A stretch of 29,717 bases of DNA from a virus. Below the pieces are notes generated by a model that saw only the letters and a list, made by a program, of their open reading frames with translations, was not told the DNA's origin and made no database searches. A program made the position numbers and the translations under genes. Numbering within the stretch: position 1 is the stretch's first letter; each line of letters opens with the position of its first letter. The stretch is taken from positions 1 to 29,717 of IMG/VR virus record IMGVR_UViG_3300032288_002284; one strand, given 5' to 3'. Shown piece by piece: positions 6,182 to 29,379 of the stretch.

Positions 6182-6655
6182 TCAGCCGTGAGATCGATAA
6201 GTTCCAGCACGAATTTGCCAAATATAATTCGCGTTGCATTTCAGCTCGTCTGCCCAAGATTGTGCAGTTCTGTCATTGCGTTTAATCGCTTGGACAACTG
6301 CTGCTGGAATCTTGCATCTTGAGTTTGATTCTCCATGCTGAGTTTTACCAAGCACATTGCGAGCATGATCAACATTTTCTTGCGCGGTGACAAACTCCAA
6401 GTTCTCTAGCCTGTTGTCAGTTTTGTCGCCGTTTTTGTGATTGATCTGCAAATCGTTTTTGCCAAAAAAAGCTTCTGCAATCAACCGATGAACAAGAAAT
6501 GATTTTGCTTTCTTTGGACTTGATCCGTCATACAGCGAGACGGTCATGTATCCCCTGCTGTTTTTGCCAGGTTTCAATTGCTTCCCAGTGATTGCATTGA
6601 AAACACAACCAGCCTGATTGACTGCATAACGATCATAATAAATCAACTTTTCCAT
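6182..6655 (-). CDS. HNH homing endonuclease (NUMOD-type)
   Basis: 157 residues from the ATG at 6655, which overlaps the upstream stop as TAATG. The order of elements is typical of free-standing phage HNH homing enzymes: an N-terminal strand region (YAVNQAGCVFNAITGKQL, NUMOD4-like), the HNH core LVHRLIAEAF then INHKNGDKTDNRLENLEFVT, and a C-terminal helix-turn-helix-like DNA-binding part (IKRNDRTAQSWADELKCN). Such enzymes nick or cut a cognate allele and spread themselves between phages; they are often inserted at operon junctions. It sits just before the terminator, consistent with a mobile insertion at the operon end. Confidence 0.88.
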   Translation of the reverse strand: MEKLIYYDRYAVNQAGCVFNAITGKQLKPGKNSRGYMTVSLYDGSSPKKAKSFLVHRLIAEAFFGKNDLQINHKNGDKTDNRLENLEFVTAQENVDHARNVLGKTQHGESNSRCKIPAAVVQAIKRNDRTAQSWADELKCNANYIWQIRAGTYRSHG

Positions 6656-7068
6656 TATTTCACCACTCCCATAATCTTCCACTCACAAGGTAAACACCGA
6701 TTCTTTGTATACACATGCCCACAACCTGGGCATCTGTATAGCTTTCGTTTTTGGCCGTCGATCAATGCTGGATCTGCTCTGTAGGTAACTTTCATCCCTT
6801 CCCTGAGAGCGATGATCTGATCACGGATCGCTTGCTCCCTGCCGGCATTGGCCGAGTAAAGCAGATGCTGATTGAAGTGCAGCTCTGCCTGCTTTTCAAA
6901 GTGTGCAGCTAACTTACCACCACGGCTTGCGAGCGTCTCGCAGACTTCATGGTAAAGCATCCCGCTTCGTTTGAGTGGCTCACAGCGTCCACAGTAGACA
7001 TTCTTTTTAGCCTCTGCATTTGTCGGCAGATTGCAGCATCGACATCGCTTTTTAGTTGGCTCGGTCAT
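6655..7068 (-). CDS. Zinc-binding protein with N- and C-terminal cysteine clusters, 137 aa
   Basis: ATG at 7068 overlaps the stop of the preceding gene (ATGA at 7065-7068). The N-terminus has CRCC and CGRC, and the C-terminus has CPGC and CLPC about 13 residues apart, giving two separate zinc-ribbon-like modules joined by a helical middle of about 75 residues. Two ribbons bracketing a helix bundle suggest nucleic-acid or protein binding. No family recognised. It follows the clamp gene and a 58-residue gene, so it travels with replication functions. Confidence 0.7.
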   Translation of the reverse strand: MTEPTKKRCRCCNLPTNAEAKKNVYCGRCEPLKRSGMLYHEVCETLASRGGKLAAHFEKQAELHFNQHLLYSANAGREQAIRDQIIALREGMKVTYRADPALIDGQKRKLYRCPGCGHVYTKNRCLPCEWKIMGVVK

Positions 7069-12149: not shown

Positions 12150-12548
12150 CTAGCCCAGTGTCCAAAAAGAATGCATGTCGTTGAGGCTAACGCAGATGTC
12201 GCCTGGCTCGAGCGTCAAGCCATTGTTGTACGCCACAGCAATTACGGCATCTTCAAGCTTGGTATAATCATGAGCTCCGATCATGTCGTAGTGCTTGATC
12301 AGAGGCTCAGAGATGCCATTAACCTTGCAGTACCATCGATCTTTTTTCGAGCAGTAATAAACATCGATCTTCTCGATTGGCTTAGCAGCGAGCTCTCCGC
12401 GAATGATCTTGACATGCTCTGGTGCAGTGATTTGTAGCTTGCACTGCTTGCCTCTTCCCGATGACACATGCACAGTCACGCATGCGTCACCGATCCACAC
12501 TTGCTGCCCGTCTTTGCGAGCGATCATCAAATTACCAGCGTTCATCAT
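12150..12548 (-). CDS. csrA: CsrA-like RNA-binding regulator with C-terminal extension, 132 aa
   Basis: ATG at 12548 (or 12545) with AAAGGA just upstream. Residues 6-55 align with CsrA/RsmA: NLMIARKDGQQVWIGD matches the opening strands with the IGD turn; VTVHV, then KQCKLQITAPEHVKIIRGEL matches the RLGI-AP-V-HREE segment, including the arginine (CsrA R44 position) that binds GGA in RNA. CsrA is normally about 60 residues; here about 75 more follow, of unknown fold, with DRWYCKVNG and HDYTKLEDAVIAV. CsrA dimers block ribosome sites or alter mRNA stability, so the phage could seize host carbon-storage/motility control or regulate its own GGA-rich leaders. It heads the early minus-strand operon. 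Confidence 0.75.
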   Translation of the reverse strand: MMNAGNLMIARKDGQQVWIGDACVTVHVSSGRGKQCKLQITAPEHVKIIRGELAAKPIEKIDVYYCSKKDRWYCKVNGISEPLIKHYDMIGAHDYTKLEDAVIAVAYNNGLTLEPGDICVSLNDMHSFWTLG

Positions 12549-12591
12549 CAATTCCTTTGTTTGAGTTGCCTAACTTTGGCGTGAGTGCTAT

Positions 12592-13076: not shown

Positions 13077-14074
13077 GCACCTCGAACTTCTCCGCGTTTG
13101 TTGATTCTAAAGTTGCTGACGTTGAACGATTGGTCTGAAGCCACTTCAACGAACGCGAAACCATGATTCCATCTGTTTACTCGAGCGTACTCTGGAGTCA
13201 GGTCGCATAGGCAACCAGTTGACCACACAAAAGTCTCGCTGTGAAACATGTCAGCGTCGGCGTGTCCGCTGGTTTGGTGCGAGTGACCAACTAGGACAGT
13301 ATGATGCGTCCGCAAGAATGCACCCCTCGCAGGATTGACTGGACTAAAAATTGACTTGCCTAGTTCATGACCATGAAGGACTGGCAGCTTGCCTAGCATT
13401 ATCGGCAATTGATCGCCAATCATCTCAATACCGAGTCGCTTGCATTGCGTCAACTCGTCAATTCTTACCGCTGCGAGGTCGTAGATTTCAGGGGCTCGAT
13501 TCCAAATAAAGTGATCCCACCGCTCTTCGTGATTGCCTTGCTTGTAGATGATTCTGATTTTTGGAAACTCTGATCGCAACCACTCTAACCCTTCGATGAC
13601 CAATTTGAGTTCCGCTGAAAACTTCCGCTTAGATGGATCGCGTTGATGCCTGCTGACTTGGTAGAAATCTGCGAAGTCTCCATTAATTAGGAGACAGTCA
13701 GGCTTCATCGTCTTCAAACGCTTTACCGCTGCGTCAAACGCAACTTCGGAGTGATATGGGATGTGAACATCGGAAATTATCCCAACACGTTTAGCGTTAA
13801 TCTGGACTGGCTCCCAGCCTTCTGCTAGGGATGGAGGCATCTTAGGCTTCTGGCCGGCCTTACCTTTTTGCCTGATTTGAGTTGCTGACCTCAAATTGCG
13901 TTTACCAGCCGCGCCGCGAATGATGCGTATCACCGTCCTGGCGTGATCGACGTTGGTGAACATCTCGGGATGTTCTTTTTTCGCTTTCTTGGCTAGCCCT
14001 ATGTTCGACGCATCTGGAAACTTGGCGCAGAGTTCTTCAAGATACAATCTCCCCGCTGTTTTGGGACTGCCCAT
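13073..14074 (-). CDS. Calcineurin-like metallophosphoesterase, 333 aa
   Basis: ATG at 14074 with GGAGGT seven bases upstream. All family motifs appear in order: SDVHIP (101-106), NGDFAD (131-136), QGNHEER (179-185), LHGH (233-236) and GHSHQTSG (263-270), so the two-metal site is intact. The first 90 residues are helical and basic and may bind nucleic acid, since they contain a helix-rich segment DASNIGLAKKAKKEHP like a small DNA-binding domain. Family members act on phosphodiesters of DNA, RNA or nucleotides. Located between late tail genes and the early arm; its job in the phage is not known. Confidence 0.88.
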   Translation of the reverse strand: MGSPKTAGRLYLEELCAKFPDASNIGLAKKAKKEHPEMFTNVDHARTVIRIIRGAAGKRNLRSATQIRQKGKAGQKPKMPPSLAEGWEPVQINAKRVGIISDVHIPYHSEVAFDAAVKRLKTMKPDCLLINGDFADFYQVSRHQRDPSKRKFSAELKLVIEGLEWLRSEFPKIRIIYKQGNHEERWDHFIWNRAPEIYDLAAVRIDELTQCKRLGIEMIGDQLPIMLGKLPVLHGHELGKSIFSPVNPARGAFLRTHHTVLVGHSHQTSGHADADMFHSETFVWSTGCLCDLTPEYARVNRWNHGFAFVEVASDQSFNVSNFRINKRGEVRGA

Positions 14075-14447
14075 CGTTTGACCTCCAAATAGAGTAAGCT
14101 TCGTCCATCGTGATTTGTGGCTTGTTTAGCTTCGCGTTGACCGCATTGTGCAATCGAACACCCCAAGCGAAGAATGCTTCTGAACTGCTGAAGTCTGGTT
14201 GATTGTCGGCTTTCCAGTCGGCATAAAACCGCTTGCATTGACAACCATATTGAGGGATCTTCAACTCCCAATCTGCGAGCGTTAATGCATCGTGAACTGT
14301 GCCGTTGTGAAGATCAGCCCATAGCGAGCGAACAAACAGCAAACGTGATCGCAGTTTACTTTCGCCAGTTTGATTTTTGTTGACTGTCCATTGGCCGGCA
14401 TTTCCACCGACAAGAACAATCGTTTTTACGCGAATACTATTGTCCAT
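14037..14447 (-). CDS. Erv/Alr sulfhydryl-oxidase-like protein, 136 aa
   Basis: I start at the ATG at 14447; the frame is open to a TTG at 14489. Residues from about 45 follow the Erv1/Alr helical-bundle pattern: RSLWADLHNGT, then YGCQCKRFYADWK, PDFSSSEAFFAWGVRLHNAVNAKLNKP. The HNxVN helix followed by L-x-KP is characteristic of the FAD-binding part, and the cysteine pair precedes it as in that family, although here it is CxC rather than CxxC. Erv/Alr enzymes make disulfides with FAD and oxygen. It lies directly downstream of an exceptionally cysteine-rich tail protein. Classification is by eye and needs profile support. Confidence 0.6.
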   Translation of the reverse strand: MDNSIRVKTIVLVGGNAGQWTVNKNQTGESKLRSRLLFVRSLWADLHNGTVHDALTLADWELKIPQYGCQCKRFYADWKADNQPDFSSSEAFFAWGVRLHNAVNAKLNKPQITMDEAYSIWRSNDGQSQNSGEIVS

Positions 14448-15733
14448 GTTGGTGCATTGATGCAAAGCGATTGAGTCGTGTTTGTACAAGTTTGAGTGTA
14501 GTTGTAAGTCGTTACATCTAAAAACTTTTCTCCAAATCTAGGCCATCCAACTGCATCATCTCCGCATGGATCGTCGTAATAACAACTTGACGGGAATGGA
14601 GTTTTTCCGACTATGCAATCGCCTAAACTGCCAATTCCAAGATATGGAGGATCAAGCTCAGTTGATGCACCGTTAAAAAGCCCGCCAACTTGAGGCACAA
14701 AAAGGCATCTAGTAGGTTCCTCTGTAGCTGCGCATTGATCATCCGCTGGAAAGTCTATCGCTGTTCTAGTGAGCTCGTCGCATAACCTGGTATCTGGCTC
14801 ATTATCGGTGTAAATATCTATCGTTGGAAACGGAGAGTCGCAATCCGAATAGACATATTGTTCCTGCAAGCCGTCACATGCATTTTCAGGTCGCCACGTT
14901 TGCTCGACAAGCTCACCTGGCGTGCAATCGTAACCGCAACCCTCTCCAGTTGCACTCAAGCAAACCTGGTTAGCGTAATCCTGCTCGTTACAAATCTCTA
15001 CCTCACAACCTTCCTCCGGTATAGCGTCGTTGTTTATTACGACGCTTCCAGTCGGCCAAGCATCGTAAATCTTTACGCGATTAAATGAAAACTCTTGCAA
15101 TAGAAGAACTGGCGTAGTGCAATCAAACGAGCCAGCTGGATTGCTTTCACTTCCCGAGCACAAATTAGCTGGAACGCTTGTTTGCTCAAAACATGAAGAA
15201 TTAGGATCTGCCTCTACCGCGTATTCCGATCCTGAGCCTAGTTCAGTCATTTCAAAGTAACCGTACTCATAAACGTAACTTGTAGATAAAACAAGCTTGC
15301 ATGAGGTCGATCCGTTGCATGTAACAGACTGCTTGCTTGCCCTTACTACGATCTCTTTTGGTCTGTATGAGATCTTTACTTTTGATTCAAGTGTGCCGCT
15401 ACATGACGCGGTCGCAGTACCAATAAAAGTTTGACCAGAATCACAACAGTACTCCAATGGAAGCGGAAAGTCTTGCTCAGTTAAAAACAAAGGAGGTGTC
15501 TTTTTGTCCATGATGTAAACATCGGCTTCCAGCGTGGCCTCATAGGACTGCACGCTGTGCGACGCAAGGCATGTCGTCGTTGTGGTCTGCGTTGTATTAA
15601 ACGTGAATGTTTTAGTCCAGCAACATGTTGATGCGACCCATGAGCCGCCAGTCATCCCGCTAATTGAAATACTCGGCAAATCGCCTACTTCCAAACATTC
15701 GCATGCGCAACAACACCCTCCGAGCTTACCCAT
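14426..15733 (-). CDS. Cysteine-rich tail-tip or receptor-binding protein, 435 aa
   Basis: ATG at 15733 directly follows the preceding stop (TAAATG). About 31 of 435 residues are cysteine (7%), including an N-terminal cluster GGCCCACEC at residues 5-13, a STCCW motif and pairs spread along the chain. The body is Ser/Thr/Asp-rich and strand-like with no collagen repeat. Position after the tape measure and two tail proteins suggests a distal tail or fibre component. The cysteines might form a disulfide-stabilised fibre or bind metal. No family recognised. No signal peptide, so disulfides would have to form in the cytoplasm or after lysis. Confidence 0.75.
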   Translation of the reverse strand: MGKLGGCCCACECLEVGDLPSISISGMTGGSWVASTCCWTKTFTFNTTQTTTTTCLASHSVQSYEATLEADVYIMDKKTPPLFLTEQDFPLPLEYCCDSGQTFIGTATASCSGTLESKVKISYRPKEIVVRASKQSVTCNGSTSCKLVLSTSYVYEYGYFEMTELGSGSEYAVEADPNSSCFEQTSVPANLCSGSESNPAGSFDCTTPVLLLQEFSFNRVKIYDAWPTGSVVINNDAIPEEGCEVEICNEQDYANQVCLSATGEGCGYDCTPGELVEQTWRPENACDGLQEQYVYSDCDSPFPTIDIYTDNEPDTRLCDELTRTAIDFPADDQCAATEEPTRCLFVPQVGGLFNGASTELDPPYLGIGSLGDCIVGKTPFPSSCYYDDPCGDDAVGWPRFGEKFLDVTTYNYTQTCTNTTQSLCINAPTWTIVFA

Positions 15734-16063
15734 TTAGCAAACCTCCACGGCAAGCCATGAGCCGCCAGAACGCAGCAAAACAACGTAAGATCCATTTGCA
15801 ATTGCTGACCCAGGATTCAGTACGTTGAGGATGTCGGTATTTTGCAATACGTTCGACGAGTCAATATATTTTGCCTGAGCTGTCCCTGTCCCTAGCGTGG
15901 TTCCAGCTCTTGCGGTAATCGTCGATGTCGCAACCGCAACCAACACTGACGCTGCCTCTGGAGCTCCAAGAGGACTGCTAGCTTGCGGATTTGCTCCACC
16001 AAGGATCCCCCGCAGCTTTTCAGCTTCGCCCTCACCCAATGCATAGTAAACTTCTTCGGCCAT
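15734..16063 (-). CDS. Small tail-region protein, 109 aa
   Basis: Start overlaps the preceding stop (TAATG at 16063) and the stop abuts the next start. An acidic helix (EEVYYALGEGEAEKLRGIL) is followed by an Ala/Thr/Ser/Gly-rich strand segment (VLVAVATSTITARAGTTLG) and a C-terminal strand ending LAVEVC. Size and composition suit a small structural linker or a stalk that attaches the next protein, but no family is recognised. Strictly coupled with its neighbours in the tail operon. Confidence 0.7.
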   Translation of the reverse strand: MAEEVYYALGEGEAEKLRGILGGANPQASSPLGAPEAASVLVAVATSTITARAGTTLGTGTAQAKYIDSSNVLQNTDILNVLNPGSAIANGSYVVLLRSGGSWLAVEVC

Positions 16064-16941
16064 TATGCCCTCAGGAAGCTAAACGAGATTTCTTTCTTGA
16101 TTCTAAAAGTAAGCACGCTCGGAGTTGTCGATTTAGCTCCAGATCCGTTGAGAGCACCGATTATTGGGAATGTGTTTGTCTTGTCTTTATAGACCTGCGT
16201 ATCGCCAGATCCATCGAGATAATATGGCCCAACATCAAGCCGCTTTTCATCATGCGTCAAAGGATCATAGGTAAACCTGTATTTGATCCTCCACGCTTGA
16301 TAGCCGGCGAATGAACCGAGCTCTGCTTCTTGAACTGCAACCAGAAGCGTTCTGGCTCCATAGGTCTGGCCGTCAGTCACATAGCTTGACGCATTCACGC
16401 AATCATTGCGATCCATGATCGTCTTGAGCTTGAGCGTAGGATCCTCGAACTGAACAAATGAAAATTGACACTGAGTAGATGACGACACTAAAGGCGAGTC
16501 AAACGGAGTGCCAGCTGAGTTAAGCGGCTTTTTAGCCGTTGGCGTTGTATAATCCTCGTCAATTACTCGCTCCCGCGTCGTAAACGAATCGACAGTAAAG
16601 ATCGGAGTCCAGGTCAACGGATCAGGACTAGGTTGATTTTCATCCTGTGCCTTCTGCTGTGCTGTACCTGTCTGGAATCTAGCTTGCACGTTCCAATAAA
16701 GAGTGTGCTTTGTGTCTCGCTCGCAAGTGACCTCATCGCAGATCAAACCAAGCGGCCCATAGATCAAGCCGGCATAGGGCAAACCTGGCGTGTTATAAAG
16801 GACGTCAAGTCGATCAGAGCTAACCTGGTCTGTTTTGACTCGAAAGTTCCAAGTCTCGCCAAAGATCAGCTTAAACCCTTCGCCCTTGCGAGCAAAGCCA
16901 GATCCAGCCCGCAGCTCTGATCCAACCAAACTATTTGCCAT
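16063..16941 (-). CDS. Tail protein after the tape measure, 292 aa
   Basis: ATG at 16941 with GAGG eight bases upstream. The sequence is strand-rich with aromatic and Asp/Thr residues (KLIFGETWNFRV, HTLYWNVQARFQT, WRIKYRFTYDPLTHD), as in distal tail or tail-tip hub proteins, but carries no motif I can name. The gene order (tape measure, this protein, small protein, Cys-rich protein) places it at the position of the distal tail protein. Structural assignment from position only. Confidence 0.7.
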   Translation of the reverse strand: MANSLVGSELRAGSGFARKGEGFKLIFGETWNFRVKTDQVSSDRLDVLYNTPGLPYAGLIYGPLGLICDEVTCERDTKHTLYWNVQARFQTGTAQQKAQDENQPSPDPLTWTPIFTVDSFTTRERVIDEDYTTPTAKKPLNSAGTPFDSPLVSSSTQCQFSFVQFEDPTLKLKTIMDRNDCVNASSYVTDGQTYGARTLLVAVQEAELGSFAGYQAWRIKYRFTYDPLTHDEKRLDVGPYYLDGSGDTQVYKDKTNTFPIIGALNGSGAKSTTPSVLTFRIKKEISFSFLRA

Positions 16942-16942
16942 G

Positions 16943-18820
16943 TTACAACCTCGCCAATCTTGGGGCTTGTCTGTTCAGTTCGTTGGCTTTCTTTTGCTCT
17001 TCAAGAATCGCCTCTTGGATCTTCTTTTGCTCTGCTTGCTGCGTTGCTTTGGCTTGTTGATCACCGAGAAATCGGAAAGCCTCAGCAGTTCCGGCCTTGA
17101 GTGCTGGAGCGATGTTTGCAATTGCTTTTTCTGCTTCTTTGGCTGGAGCCTTTTCCTGTGCCAATCGTTTCTTTTCACGCTCTGCTGCGATCCTACGATC
17201 AAAATCCTCAGCAATAGCCATTTCCTGCTCTGTATAACCAGCGGCCTCGCGTTTTTTTCGGTTGTACTCTTCCTCGCTCATGACAAGTCTGTCGTACTCA
17301 TCGCGCATCGCCATGATCTCTTTGGACACTTTATTTCGCTCATCGGCCTCAGCTTGAACTCCAGCAAGCATCTTCTTTTCAGCCTCTGCTGCTTCTTTGC
17401 GAGCCACTGCTGCTTCCTTCTCAATCGCAGCTTGCTCAGCGAGTACTTTTGCTCGCTCTGCCTCCTGAGCATTGCTCAAGGTTATTTGATCCTGGCGATC
17501 TTGCTCTGCCTGTTTGAGCTCTTCGTACGAATCTAGGATATTGCCAAAAACAGTGTTTTGACCGCTCACGACATCTTGAACAAAGCCAATTGGTGAAATC
17601 ATCGACGATAGATCAGTTTTTTGCAAACCACCGATGATGCTTGTGTAAGCATCGGAGATTAGCCCGATGTTAAAACCAATCACGCCTGGCCCCTCGCCAC
17701 CGCTCTCGGTTTGAAAGAGTTGCCTCAGCCCTTCAGATGCTTTTGATAATAACGGGATAAGCTCTGTGCCTACTTCAACAGCCAAAGCTTTGATATCCCC
17801 TTCTATCTTGCTGTACTGGCCGGCAATGCTGTTGGCAAGTCGCTCATTCATGCCAGCAAACCGGCCACCCTCTTCAGTTGCAGTCATAAAAGCTTTAGCG
17901 ACCATGTCAGCAGAGATCCCGCCGGCTTCCATCTGCTTTTTAAGATCAACCATTGCAATGCCGGTCGTTCTGCTGATCTCCTGCAATGGATTAAAACCAG
18001 CGTTGACCATTTGCAACAGCTCGCCACCCATCAATCGACCATTGGCAGCAACCTGACCAAAAGCGAGCGATAGACTCTGGAACTGCTGAGTGTTTCCTAG
18101 CGAGATCGCTGACATTGAACTGAGTATCCCAGGAATCGATTCGGCAGCTAAGCCAAATTGCATCAATGTTTTCGCTGCGCTGGCAAAATCGCCTGCGTTG
18201 ATCGGGCTTTGCACATCGAGAGCCTTGAATTGATCCATCAGCATCTGCGCTGTGGAAATTGATCCGGTCATCACCTCAAAAGCGATCCTGGTCTGCTCAG
18301 CCTCAGATGCAAACGAGATAGCTTGCTTTAGTCCACTGACAGCAGCTGTTGCGCCAATGTACCCTGCTGCCATGCTCTTAAGCTGGCTCATTGCATTGGC
18401 ATTCGATCCAATAGATCTGGTTTGCTCTTGAACTGATTGCGTGACAGCTCCAAGTGATCGTTGCAAATTGGCCTGAGCAACTCTGAACTGATCAGCAGAC
18501 ATTGTGCCAGCTTCAAGCTTGGCCCTGAGTGCCTGCATTCCGGTTGAATATGCCTCAAGATTAGCAGTTGGGATCTTCACTCCGAGCTTTTGGCTAAGTC
18601 GCTCCTGCATCCTAACGAACGCTTCAGCACTAACACCCCCGGCCCGGTATGCTCGAGCCAACTTATCCATCTCGTCAGCGTACTTATCAAACGGATCAAT
18701 TGACTCCCTAGCGAGCTTGCTGATGCTATTCAACTCAGCCCTAGTAAACTGCCCGTTTTTGCGCAGCTCGTCAACATCGAGCCCAATCTTGATGTTGGCA
18801 ACATTGATCGTTTGAGCCAT
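16943..18820 (-). CDS. Tail tape measure protein, 625 aa
   Basis: ATG at 18820 follows the chaperone stop (TAGATG) with GGGGAGG upstream. Residues about 165-300 match the conserved tape-measure domain (EQTRIAFEVMTGSI, INAGDFASAAKTLMQFG, NGRLMGGELLQMVNAGFNPL). Before it are helical parts and a small hydrophobic stretch near residue 155-170; residues 430-625 are a long Glu/Lys/Gln/Ala coiled coil. The protein sets tail length; at about 1.5 angstrom per residue, 625 residues imply a tail of roughly 90-95 nm. It follows two chaperone frames, as is standard. No lysozyme or peptidase domain is evident. Confidence 0.93.
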   Translation of the reverse strand: MAQTINVANIKIGLDVDELRKNGQFTRAELNSISKLARESIDPFDKYADEMDKLARAYRAGGVSAEAFVRMQERLSQKLGVKIPTANLEAYSTGMQALRAKLEAGTMSADQFRVAQANLQRSLGAVTQSVQEQTRSIGSNANAMSQLKSMAAGYIGATAAVSGLKQAISFASEAEQTRIAFEVMTGSISTAQMLMDQFKALDVQSPINAGDFASAAKTLMQFGLAAESIPGILSSMSAISLGNTQQFQSLSLAFGQVAANGRLMGGELLQMVNAGFNPLQEISRTTGIAMVDLKKQMEAGGISADMVAKAFMTATEEGGRFAGMNERLANSIAGQYSKIEGDIKALAVEVGTELIPLLSKASEGLRQLFQTESGGEGPGVIGFNIGLISDAYTSIIGGLQKTDLSSMISPIGFVQDVVSGQNTVFGNILDSYEELKQAEQDRQDQITLSNAQEAERAKVLAEQAAIEKEAAVARKEAAEAEKKMLAGVQAEADERNKVSKEIMAMRDEYDRLVMSEEEYNRKKREAAGYTEQEMAIAEDFDRRIAAEREKKRLAQEKAPAKEAEKAIANIAPALKAGTAEAFRFLGDQQAKATQQAEQKKIQEAILEEQKKANELNRQAPRLARL

Positions 18821-22636: not shown

Positions 22637-23095
22637 CTAGACAACGATGCAGCAATCGCCGTCAGCAACGCCGGTTGACGTTGTTGGGGCGATCTTGCCA
22701 CGGCTCAGGCACGCAACAGCGGAGATAAAACCGCCGGTGCTTCCATCACCAAAGGTCGCAACGACCTTCAAGAATGGATTCTTGCCTCGCATGTCGATGT
22801 GGAAAACACAAACCTGACCATCATCGGTTGCACTAGGCAGAGCCAAAGTCGCTCCACCAAGTCCACTGCCACCATCGAAGGTAGCTCCAGTGATGTCAGC
22901 GTAAGTTCCACCAGAAGCATCGGACGATTGCACCTTCAAGGCAGTCACGGCGATGTCAGTTGCCCCGAGGGTAACTGCAATCGTCACAAAGTCCCAGTTG
23001 GTGCAATCAATCGCTGTTGCGGTTGCTGATGCATTATCAAGGATGGCTGCCGGCTTGATCGCTGCAACCCATTTGCTGTGCTGAATACTGTTCAT
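22637..23095 (-). CDS. Small head protein (decoration-like), 152 aa
   Basis: ATG at 23095, AGGT upstream, 21 bases after the capsid stop. Gly/Ala/Thr-rich with strand pattern (DFVTIAVTLGATDIAVTALKVQSSD, GGTYADITGATF) and ending CLSRG...CCIVV. The position right after the major capsid gene and its all-beta look suit a head decoration or fibre-base protein. The DASGGTYADITGATF segment is like other phage proteins with a short sample-like fold. Family not named. Confidence 0.7.
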   Translation of the reverse strand: MNSIQHSKWVAAIKPAAILDNASATATAIDCTNWDFVTIAVTLGATDIAVTALKVQSSDASGGTYADITGATFDGGSGLGGATLALPSATDDGQVCVFHIDMRGKNPFLKVVATFGDGSTGGFISAVACLSRGKIAPTTSTGVADGDCCIVV

Positions 23096-28524: not shown

Positions 28525-29012
28525 TCGGCCCCCGTTGCTTGCGAAAGCCAAATCTCAAATGGATCTTCTTCCTTCGGCTTATCTGGCGAGTATTTATTGC
28601 GCTGCGTTGGAGCAAGGCCAAGCTCAGGCAAAAGCTTGTTTGCTTGATCGCGATACTTGTGGAGGTCTGGAAGCAGCGGATGCCTTTTGTGATCTGTCTC
28701 CCCACCAGTCTTGACGAAGGTCACAACCTCGCCCTCTTTGGCGATCCTTCGACGCACGCTGATCCAGCTAGCATAGGCGACAACGTAAGCCTCGATGATC
28801 TGGCCCAGATCACTGCTAAGCGATCCCATTCGACGCATGTCGTCAATGGTTCTCATCCAGATTTGCCTTTCTTCTTCCGTAAAGAAATCGGGCATGCGTG
28901 GTTCTTTGCCGTCAGCCTTGGAAGCATCTTTGTTTTGACGCTCAGGATGCTTCTTGTAATAGCCATCCTTTTCTGCTTGCTCTGGCGTTTTTGCTTTTCG
29001 ACCTCTAACCAT
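28521..29012 (-). CDS. terS: Terminase small subunit (P27 family)
   Basis: 163 residues; ATG at 29012, GGAGG seven bases upstream. Typical P27-like features: basic N-terminus VRGRKAKTPEQ, helical middle MPDFFTEEERQIWMRTIDDMRRMGSLSSDLGQIIEAYVVAYASW, and conserved HPLLPDLHKYRDQANKLLPELGLAPTQRNK at the C-terminus. Recognises the packaging site and passes it to TerL. Neighbouring HNH endonuclease and P27/TerL arrangement is typical of cos-type phages; the cos site itself is not visible. Confidence 0.93.
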   Translation of the reverse strand: MVRGRKAKTPEQAEKDGYYKKHPERQNKDASKADGKEPRMPDFFTEEERQIWMRTIDDMRRMGSLSSDLGQIIEAYVVAYASWISVRRRIAKEGEVVTFVKTGGETDHKRHPLLPDLHKYRDQANKLLPELGLAPTQRNKYSPDKPKEEDPFEIWLSQATGAE

Positions 29013-29379
29013 GATTTCCTCCGATTAGCCAATCGTATTGATTTGACCTTGATTTGATCTCGAGCCCTGCCATCGCATCACCTTCGATCTGCTCATGGCA
29101 TGGTCTACAAAGTGCAAGCCAATTTGACCTCTTCATTCGCAGCTCAGGATTGCTGGCAATTGCGTAGATGTGATGCATGTCCTCAGTTGGATTAGCTTGC
29201 TCAACGCCGTATAACGCCACGCAACGCTCGCACAAAGGATGATTGGCCCTGTACCGCTCTGATGCCTTGCGGTGATCGTAGCCATGCCCCTCGCTCGTTG
29301 TGGAGCGTTTCTGCGTTGAAGATCTTTTACAGTCGCATTTATCAGCGACGATTCTACCGCACTGGCACAGCTTAGGCAT
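29005..29379 (-). CDS. HNH endonuclease next to terminase
   Basis: 124 residues, start ATG at 29379 overlapping the preceding stop. C-terminal HNH: DMHHIYAIASNPELRMKRSNWLALCRPCHEQIE, with two cysteine pairs CERC and CRPC framing the metal/zinc site; two CxC groups (CQCG, CDCK) at the N-terminus may add a zinc module. HNH enzymes in this position, as in HK97 and phi-type phages, are needed together with terminase to cut cos. Overlaps terS by 8 bases. Confidence 0.93.
   Translation of the reverse strand: MPKLCQCGRIVADKCDCKRSSTQKRSTTSEGHGYDHRKASERYRANHPLCERCVALYGVEQANPTEDMHHIYAIASNPELRMKRSNWLALCRPCHEQIEGDAMAGLEIKSRSNQYDWLIGGNHG

Follow-up and report, generated by a model that had tools for sequence, protein, structure and literature searches.

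A Cys-X-Cys homologue of the Erv/ALR sulfhydryl oxidases is encoded beside a cysteine-rich, probable tail protein in uncultured tailed phages

Introduction

Why would a tailed phage carry, side by side in its tail module, a gene for a protein packed with cysteines and a gene for a relative of the FAD-linked sulfhydryl oxidases? The question arises from a virus record in IMG/VR, 29,717 bases long and referred to here as the window, which is the whole stretch of DNA that was analysed. A sequence-only reading of the window had suggested that the two proteins may be a dedicated pair, which forms disulfides in the cytoplasm and so rigidifies the tip of the tail.

Poxviruses, African swine fever virus (ASFV) and baculoviruses are already known to encode the means of forming disulfides in their virion proteins. 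In vaccinia virus E10R, A2.5L and G4L constitute a virus-coded cytoplasmic disulfide pathway for virion proteins, and pB119L of ASFV is active in a reducing compartment. In baculoviruses disulfides cross-link capsid proteins, with Ac92/P33 as the oxidase, and a 2024 survey, which also deals with the fold of E10R, locates the homologues of this oxidase in other viruses of eukaryotes (PMC11654684). Our search of the open-access literature returned no phage Erv protein, though subscription journals or preprints could contain one.

Results

The cassette lies in the tail module

The window carries head genes (terminase, portal, protease and an HK97-type major head protein) together with a replication module, and its large terminase subunit is less than 33% identical to that of each listed phage. 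Gene calls here and below are based on open reading frames, and the virus contigs are from uncultured viruses. The genes of interest are all on the minus strand. The tape measure protein (16943..18820, 625 residues) is identified by matches to PF20155 TMP_3 (65 bits) and phrog_9959 (137 bits). It is followed in order by genes for a protein of 292 residues (16063..16941), which has no match in Pfam or PHROG and is assigned to the tail module from its position between the tape measure and the cassette, a small protein of 109 residues (15734..16063), the Cys-rich protein (14426..15733, 435 residues from an ATG) and the Erv-like protein (14037..14447, 136 residues from an ATG). The cassette thus starts two genes past the tape measure gene, which places it in the tail module, and this order fits the earlier placement of the Cys-rich protein on the tail-tip side. 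The open reading frames of the Cys-rich and Erv-like proteins share 22 nt. Neither protein has a hydrophobic stretch at its N-terminus when inspected by eye, in keeping with the suggestion that both lack signal peptides.

The Cys-rich protein stands out from its surroundings. Cysteine makes up around 0–3% of the residues in most of the 35 listed genes of the window, as against 7.1% in this protein, and a comparable fraction is seen only in two short open reading frames, at 6655-7068 and in the HNH gene at 29005-29379. The former (minus strand, 137 residues, 10 Cys, 7.3%) adjoins an HNH endonuclease gene and has no match in Pfam or PHROG. Elsewhere on the minus strand of the window, a protein of 152 residues encoded after the major head gene (22637-23095) has another Cys pair in its C-terminal end, DGDCCIVV, and 12150-12551 encodes a CsrA-like regulator that is extended at its C-terminus (PF02599, 46.6 bits).

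The 136-residue protein is a homologue of the Erv/ALR oxidases

The sequence-only reading had noticed a resemblance to FAD-linked sulfhydryl oxidases from a CQC followed by an HNxVN motif. Searches confirm it: the protein matches PF04777 with 34.8 bits, above the curated cut-off of 27.6, and phmmer finds ALR in the PDB. Searching with the protein gave relatives on 73 viral contigs, while a second search, made with a DNA pattern for HNxVNxxLGKP so as to be unbiased toward the Erv family of the window, gave at least 120 stretches, and the pattern matches listed were on translation mostly Erv-like ORFs of phage contigs. PF04777 was matched by all 61 aligned phage relatives among the matches listed, and a profile built from these 61 matches ASFV pB119L and human ALR over nearly the whole domain with E=2e-16.

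The predicted structure agrees. The AlphaFold (AF2) model has a five-helix core with a pLDDT of 92-97, residues 1-21 and 126-135 being of low confidence. The best 24 Foldseek matches to the model are all Erv/ALR proteins (ALR, Erv1 and pB119L), and in VIA-align it superposes on pB119L (3gwl) with a Z of 11.6 and an rmsd of 1.9 Å over 88 residues, the first unrelated row being at Z 3.3. The ERV/ALR fold, on which the earlier suggestion had been made to depend, is therefore predicted.

Although the 61 relatives have otherwise diverged down to 24-30% identity, Trp43, His47, Cys69, Cys71, His100, Asn101, Val103, Asn104, Leu107 and Lys109 are invariant. These include the FAD-site residues, W..LH on helix 1 and HNxVN-x-x-L-x-K on helix 4, which are kept in 61/61 and align with those of ALR and pB119L. 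Chance resemblance in the HNxVN motif is ruled out by the profile, fold and Pfam matches, and the protein is genuinely homologous to the FAD-linked sulfhydryl oxidases of the Erv/ALR family. It would be expected to bind FAD.

The protein consists of a single domain, with neither the extra pseudo-Erv domain nor the thioredoxin domain of the Ac92/QSOX type. It has just two cysteines, in the CQC of IPQYGCQCKRFY, with HNAVNAKLNKP downstream, and so has no shuttle cysteine pair. In being a single Erv domain without a shuttle pair it resembles the compact viral Erv enzymes that lack a shuttle disulfide, which are known to exist (PMC3509050).

The active-site cysteines are separated by one residue

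Two features of the locus go beyond the sequence-only reading. The first is the spacing of the two cysteines, Cys69-Gln-Cys71, a CxC in place of the CxxC that is the standard Erv signature (PMC10598087). The same spacing is seen in 48 of the 61 representatives, with CxxC in the other 13 (among the matches listed). On a tree of the 61 the two forms have switched at least 2 times, most simply 4, and CxC and CxxC proteins adjoin one another, with L166 and L201 next to L155, L251 and L175. This interchange suggests that the Cys pair is under a redox-type constraint, the pair being kept while the spacing drifts. A redox-active CxC is also found, as CPC, in Mia40, the partner of Erv1 (PMC4019985). 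By analogy, the CxC may do here what CxxC does in other Erv enzymes, and we regard the protein as a variant rather than a standard member of the family, which from its sequence probably works like an Erv oxidase.

The absence of CxxC from the window protein and from 48/61 relatives, the lack of a shuttle disulfide and the location of the gene among tail structural genes would all fit a catalytically dead protein that uses an old fold to bind the Cys-rich protein, as a tail chaperone or structural piece. A dead scaffold should, however, lose its catalytic residues, whereas both cysteines and all of the FAD-site residues are invariant in 61 proteins; in addition, CxxC members are found next to CxC members and they too have Cys-rich neighbours. 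We consider a dead protein unlikely.

A protein with 31 cysteines

The count of about 31 cysteines given earlier for the 435-residue protein is exact, and the GGCCCACEC that had been picked out is at its N-terminus (MGKLGGCCCACEC). A search with this single sequence found no relatives; these came only when alignments were used. Across the 35 aligned sequences of the group to which the window protein belongs, Met1 and 17 cysteines are invariant and nearly everything else varies. A tight cluster of cysteines at the N-terminus, for instance MGKIGKCCC..C, is seen across unrelated groups, 104 of 108 Cys-rich proteins having 4 or more Cys within 14 residues (mean 4.7, as against 2.2 in shuffles of the 108).

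The AF2 model (pLDDT 86, pTM 0.73) is nearly all beta and includes a long hairpin, 101-139/142-175, with strands of 39 and 34 residues. No convincing match to it was found in the PDB or BFVD, and none to a tail-tip protein, although such an absence is no proof of a new fold; nor did the sequence match families in Pfam, PHROG or the PDB. From its position after the tape measure it is probably a tail-tip or adhesion protein, which would put it in the virion. In five other Cys-rich proteins (L158, L160, L183, L202 and L204) the CCC cluster is followed by EDDFNRA...L.GSW, which resembles LamG/concanavalin-like adhesion domains and is candidate support for a binding role.

Clusters such as CCCxCxC can in general bind metal, and the cysteines might accordingly hold zinc, iron or an Fe-S cluster, leaving the Erv-like protein some other redox step. 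The window protein, however, has only one CxxC and one His in its 435 residues, and hence bears little resemblance to a protein built around zinc or Fe-S. The unrelated groups of partner proteins (see below) have Cys richness alone in common, one of them looking EGF-like by eye, and the neighbouring gene encodes a disulfide-making fold. Metal binding therefore seems to us very improbable.

The two genes are paired across unrelated Cys-rich proteins

The claim of a dedicated pair holds up from both directions. Directly upstream of the Erv gene there is a protein with at least 12 Cys in 63/70 phage loci, compared with 9/731 other genes of the same contigs (matches listed), and at least two of the 7 exceptions (L181 and L225) have a Cys-rich gene one position further upstream. 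Two loci, L230 and L252, have an Erv-like gene without a clear Cys-rich neighbour. In the reverse search, three alignments of Cys-rich proteins were run against viral contigs with no reference to Erv, and a contig counted as testable if its Cys-rich gene was complete and was followed by no less than 450 nt. In 73/73 such contigs, representing 61 distinct Cys-rich proteins, the Cys-rich gene is directly followed by an Erv ORF. As many contigs are near copies, 63/70 and 73/73 overstate the number of independent cases.

The strongest argument comes from the Cys-rich proteins themselves. They fall into at least 8 groups with no BLAST similarity to one another at the threshold used, the partners of CxxC Erv proteins (L170, L184 and L216) included, and so descent from a single ancestral block cannot account for the pairing, which probably reflects a functional link. 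That the oxidase instead targets host thiols or redox balance at lysis, the Cys-rich protein being oxidised by air afterwards (which is chemically plausible for virion thiols) and the genes merely travelling together, is scarcely probable, given that the genes stay adjacent although the Cys-rich proteins are unrelated, and that the adjacency is exceptionless from the Cys-rich side and goes as far as overlapping ORFs, an arrangement for which a host-directed enzyme would have no need.

The pairing is also seen in a Verrucomicrobiota prophage with an integrase, where a CxC Erv gene adjoins that of a 571-residue protein with 32 Cys. The C-terminal repeats of this protein look EGF-like by eye, EGF being a classical disulfide domain. 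On a Flavobacteriaceae MAG contig with phage-like genes (L281; L288:10705-11955) an Erv-like CxC domain lies inside an ORF of 416 residues, which has a Cys pair region at its N-terminus and a long extension at its C-terminus and adjoins the gene for a 933-residue protein with 33 Cys.

Erv relatives are rare in bacterial genomes, being found in 1/392, 3/388 and 1/395 of the genomes sampled from three phyla. A match in a Roseibacillus MAG (L282, genome G002) was not counted as bacterial; it adjoins an ORF that looks like a FYVE-type zinc finger by eye and is probably eukaryotic contamination. None of 50,697 named phages matched the Cys-rich protein, the 109-residue protein or any of five Erv queries, and PHROGs contains no clearly matching family.

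The preceding protein ends in a cysteine

The second feature beyond the sequence-only reading is in the gene upstream of the Cys-rich gene. The 109-residue protein has a single cysteine, at its very C-terminus (SWLAVEVC). Among the 52 distinct proteins encoded at this position, most of which belong to one diverged family (39 members), 36 end in a cysteine and 5 more have one within the last 3 residues; in a comparison set of 597 other genes the corresponding numbers are 9 and 20. The last codons of the gene overlie the ribosome-binding region of the Cys-rich gene (GGAGGTTTGCTAAATG), and this could explain the 'VE' before the terminal cysteine but would not force a Cys codon.

The natural guess from the sequences is that this terminal cysteine forms a bridge to the N-terminal CCCxC cluster of the Cys-rich protein, making the 109-residue protein a candidate disulfide partner. 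The number of cysteines is odd in 83 of the 108 Cys-rich proteins and even in 25, so that, as a general rule, the cysteines of one chain cannot all pair with each other. An odd count fits an inter-chain bridge, although this is a weak hint, as clade structure alone could give it. Co-variation between Cys columns was dropped as evidence, since clade structure alone yields the same pattern.

Discussion

Taken together, we think it likely that these genes form a disulfide cassette of two or three genes in the tail module of a tailed phage, made up of a CxC Erv oxidase and a Cys-rich substrate. The Erv-like protein would be made from the same message as its putative substrate and would bind FAD of the host. 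The disulfide between Cys69 and Cys71, next to the flavin, would take electrons from the thiols of the Cys-rich protein, and these would pass via FAD to oxygen or another acceptor. Disulfides would in this way form in the reducing cytoplasm of the host during synthesis and assembly, and would harden a beta-rich tail-tip or adhesion protein. Some of them may link the terminal cysteine of the 109-residue protein to the CCCxC cluster at the N-terminus of the Cys-rich protein. More tentatively, and with rather less confidence than in the cassette itself, we suggest that in several lineages of uncultured tailed phages the CxC Erv protein not only rivets the Cys-rich protein but also ties its N-terminal CCCxC cluster to the cysteine that ends the preceding tail protein, such that the end of the tail would be covalently cross-linked before lysis.

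The closest structural match, pB119L of ASFV (3gwl), is likewise a small, virus-encoded protein with a single Erv domain. It differs, however, in having a CxxC site, in belonging to a large DNA virus of eukaryotes and in not being known to pair with one particular Cys-rich structural gene next to it. Human ALR and yeast Erv1 and Erv2 share with the window protein the fold, the W..H and the HNxVN-x-x-L-x-K of the FAD site, but they have both a CxxC and a shuttle pair, are mitochondrial or in the ER, and act through Mia40 or PDI. The window protein has only the CxC, and its link between the first two helices is shorter.

Baculovirus Ac92/P33 is comparable as a virus-encoded oxidase in a reducing compartment, but it has an extra pseudo-Erv domain, matches the structure of the window protein weakly (Z 4.5) and has its substrates among the nucleocapsid and entry proteins of an insect virus. 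The vaccinia pathway differs in being a relay with a thioredoxin-like carrier, whereas the genes of the window that were run against Pfam include no thioredoxin- or PDI-like partner. As for the active site, the CPC of Mia40 (PMC4019985) is also a redox-active CxC within an Erv-linked pathway, but there it is on the partner at the substrate side, while in the window it is in the homologue of the flavoprotein.

As judged from these sequences, what appears to be new is the use of such a system by tailed phages, together with the CxC site and the fixed Cys-rich neighbour. The locus suggests disulfide-stapling of a part of the tail inside the bacterial cell, which has not previously been described for tailed phages in the open-access literature. 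If this is true, virus-coded disulfide formation in a reducing compartment would extend to the viruses of bacteria, phages could use disulfide-hardened adhesion proteins without secretion, and a CxC active site would be added to a family defined by CxxC. A single enzyme of this kind might also be a possible tool for producing disulfide-rich proteins in the bacterial cytoplasm.
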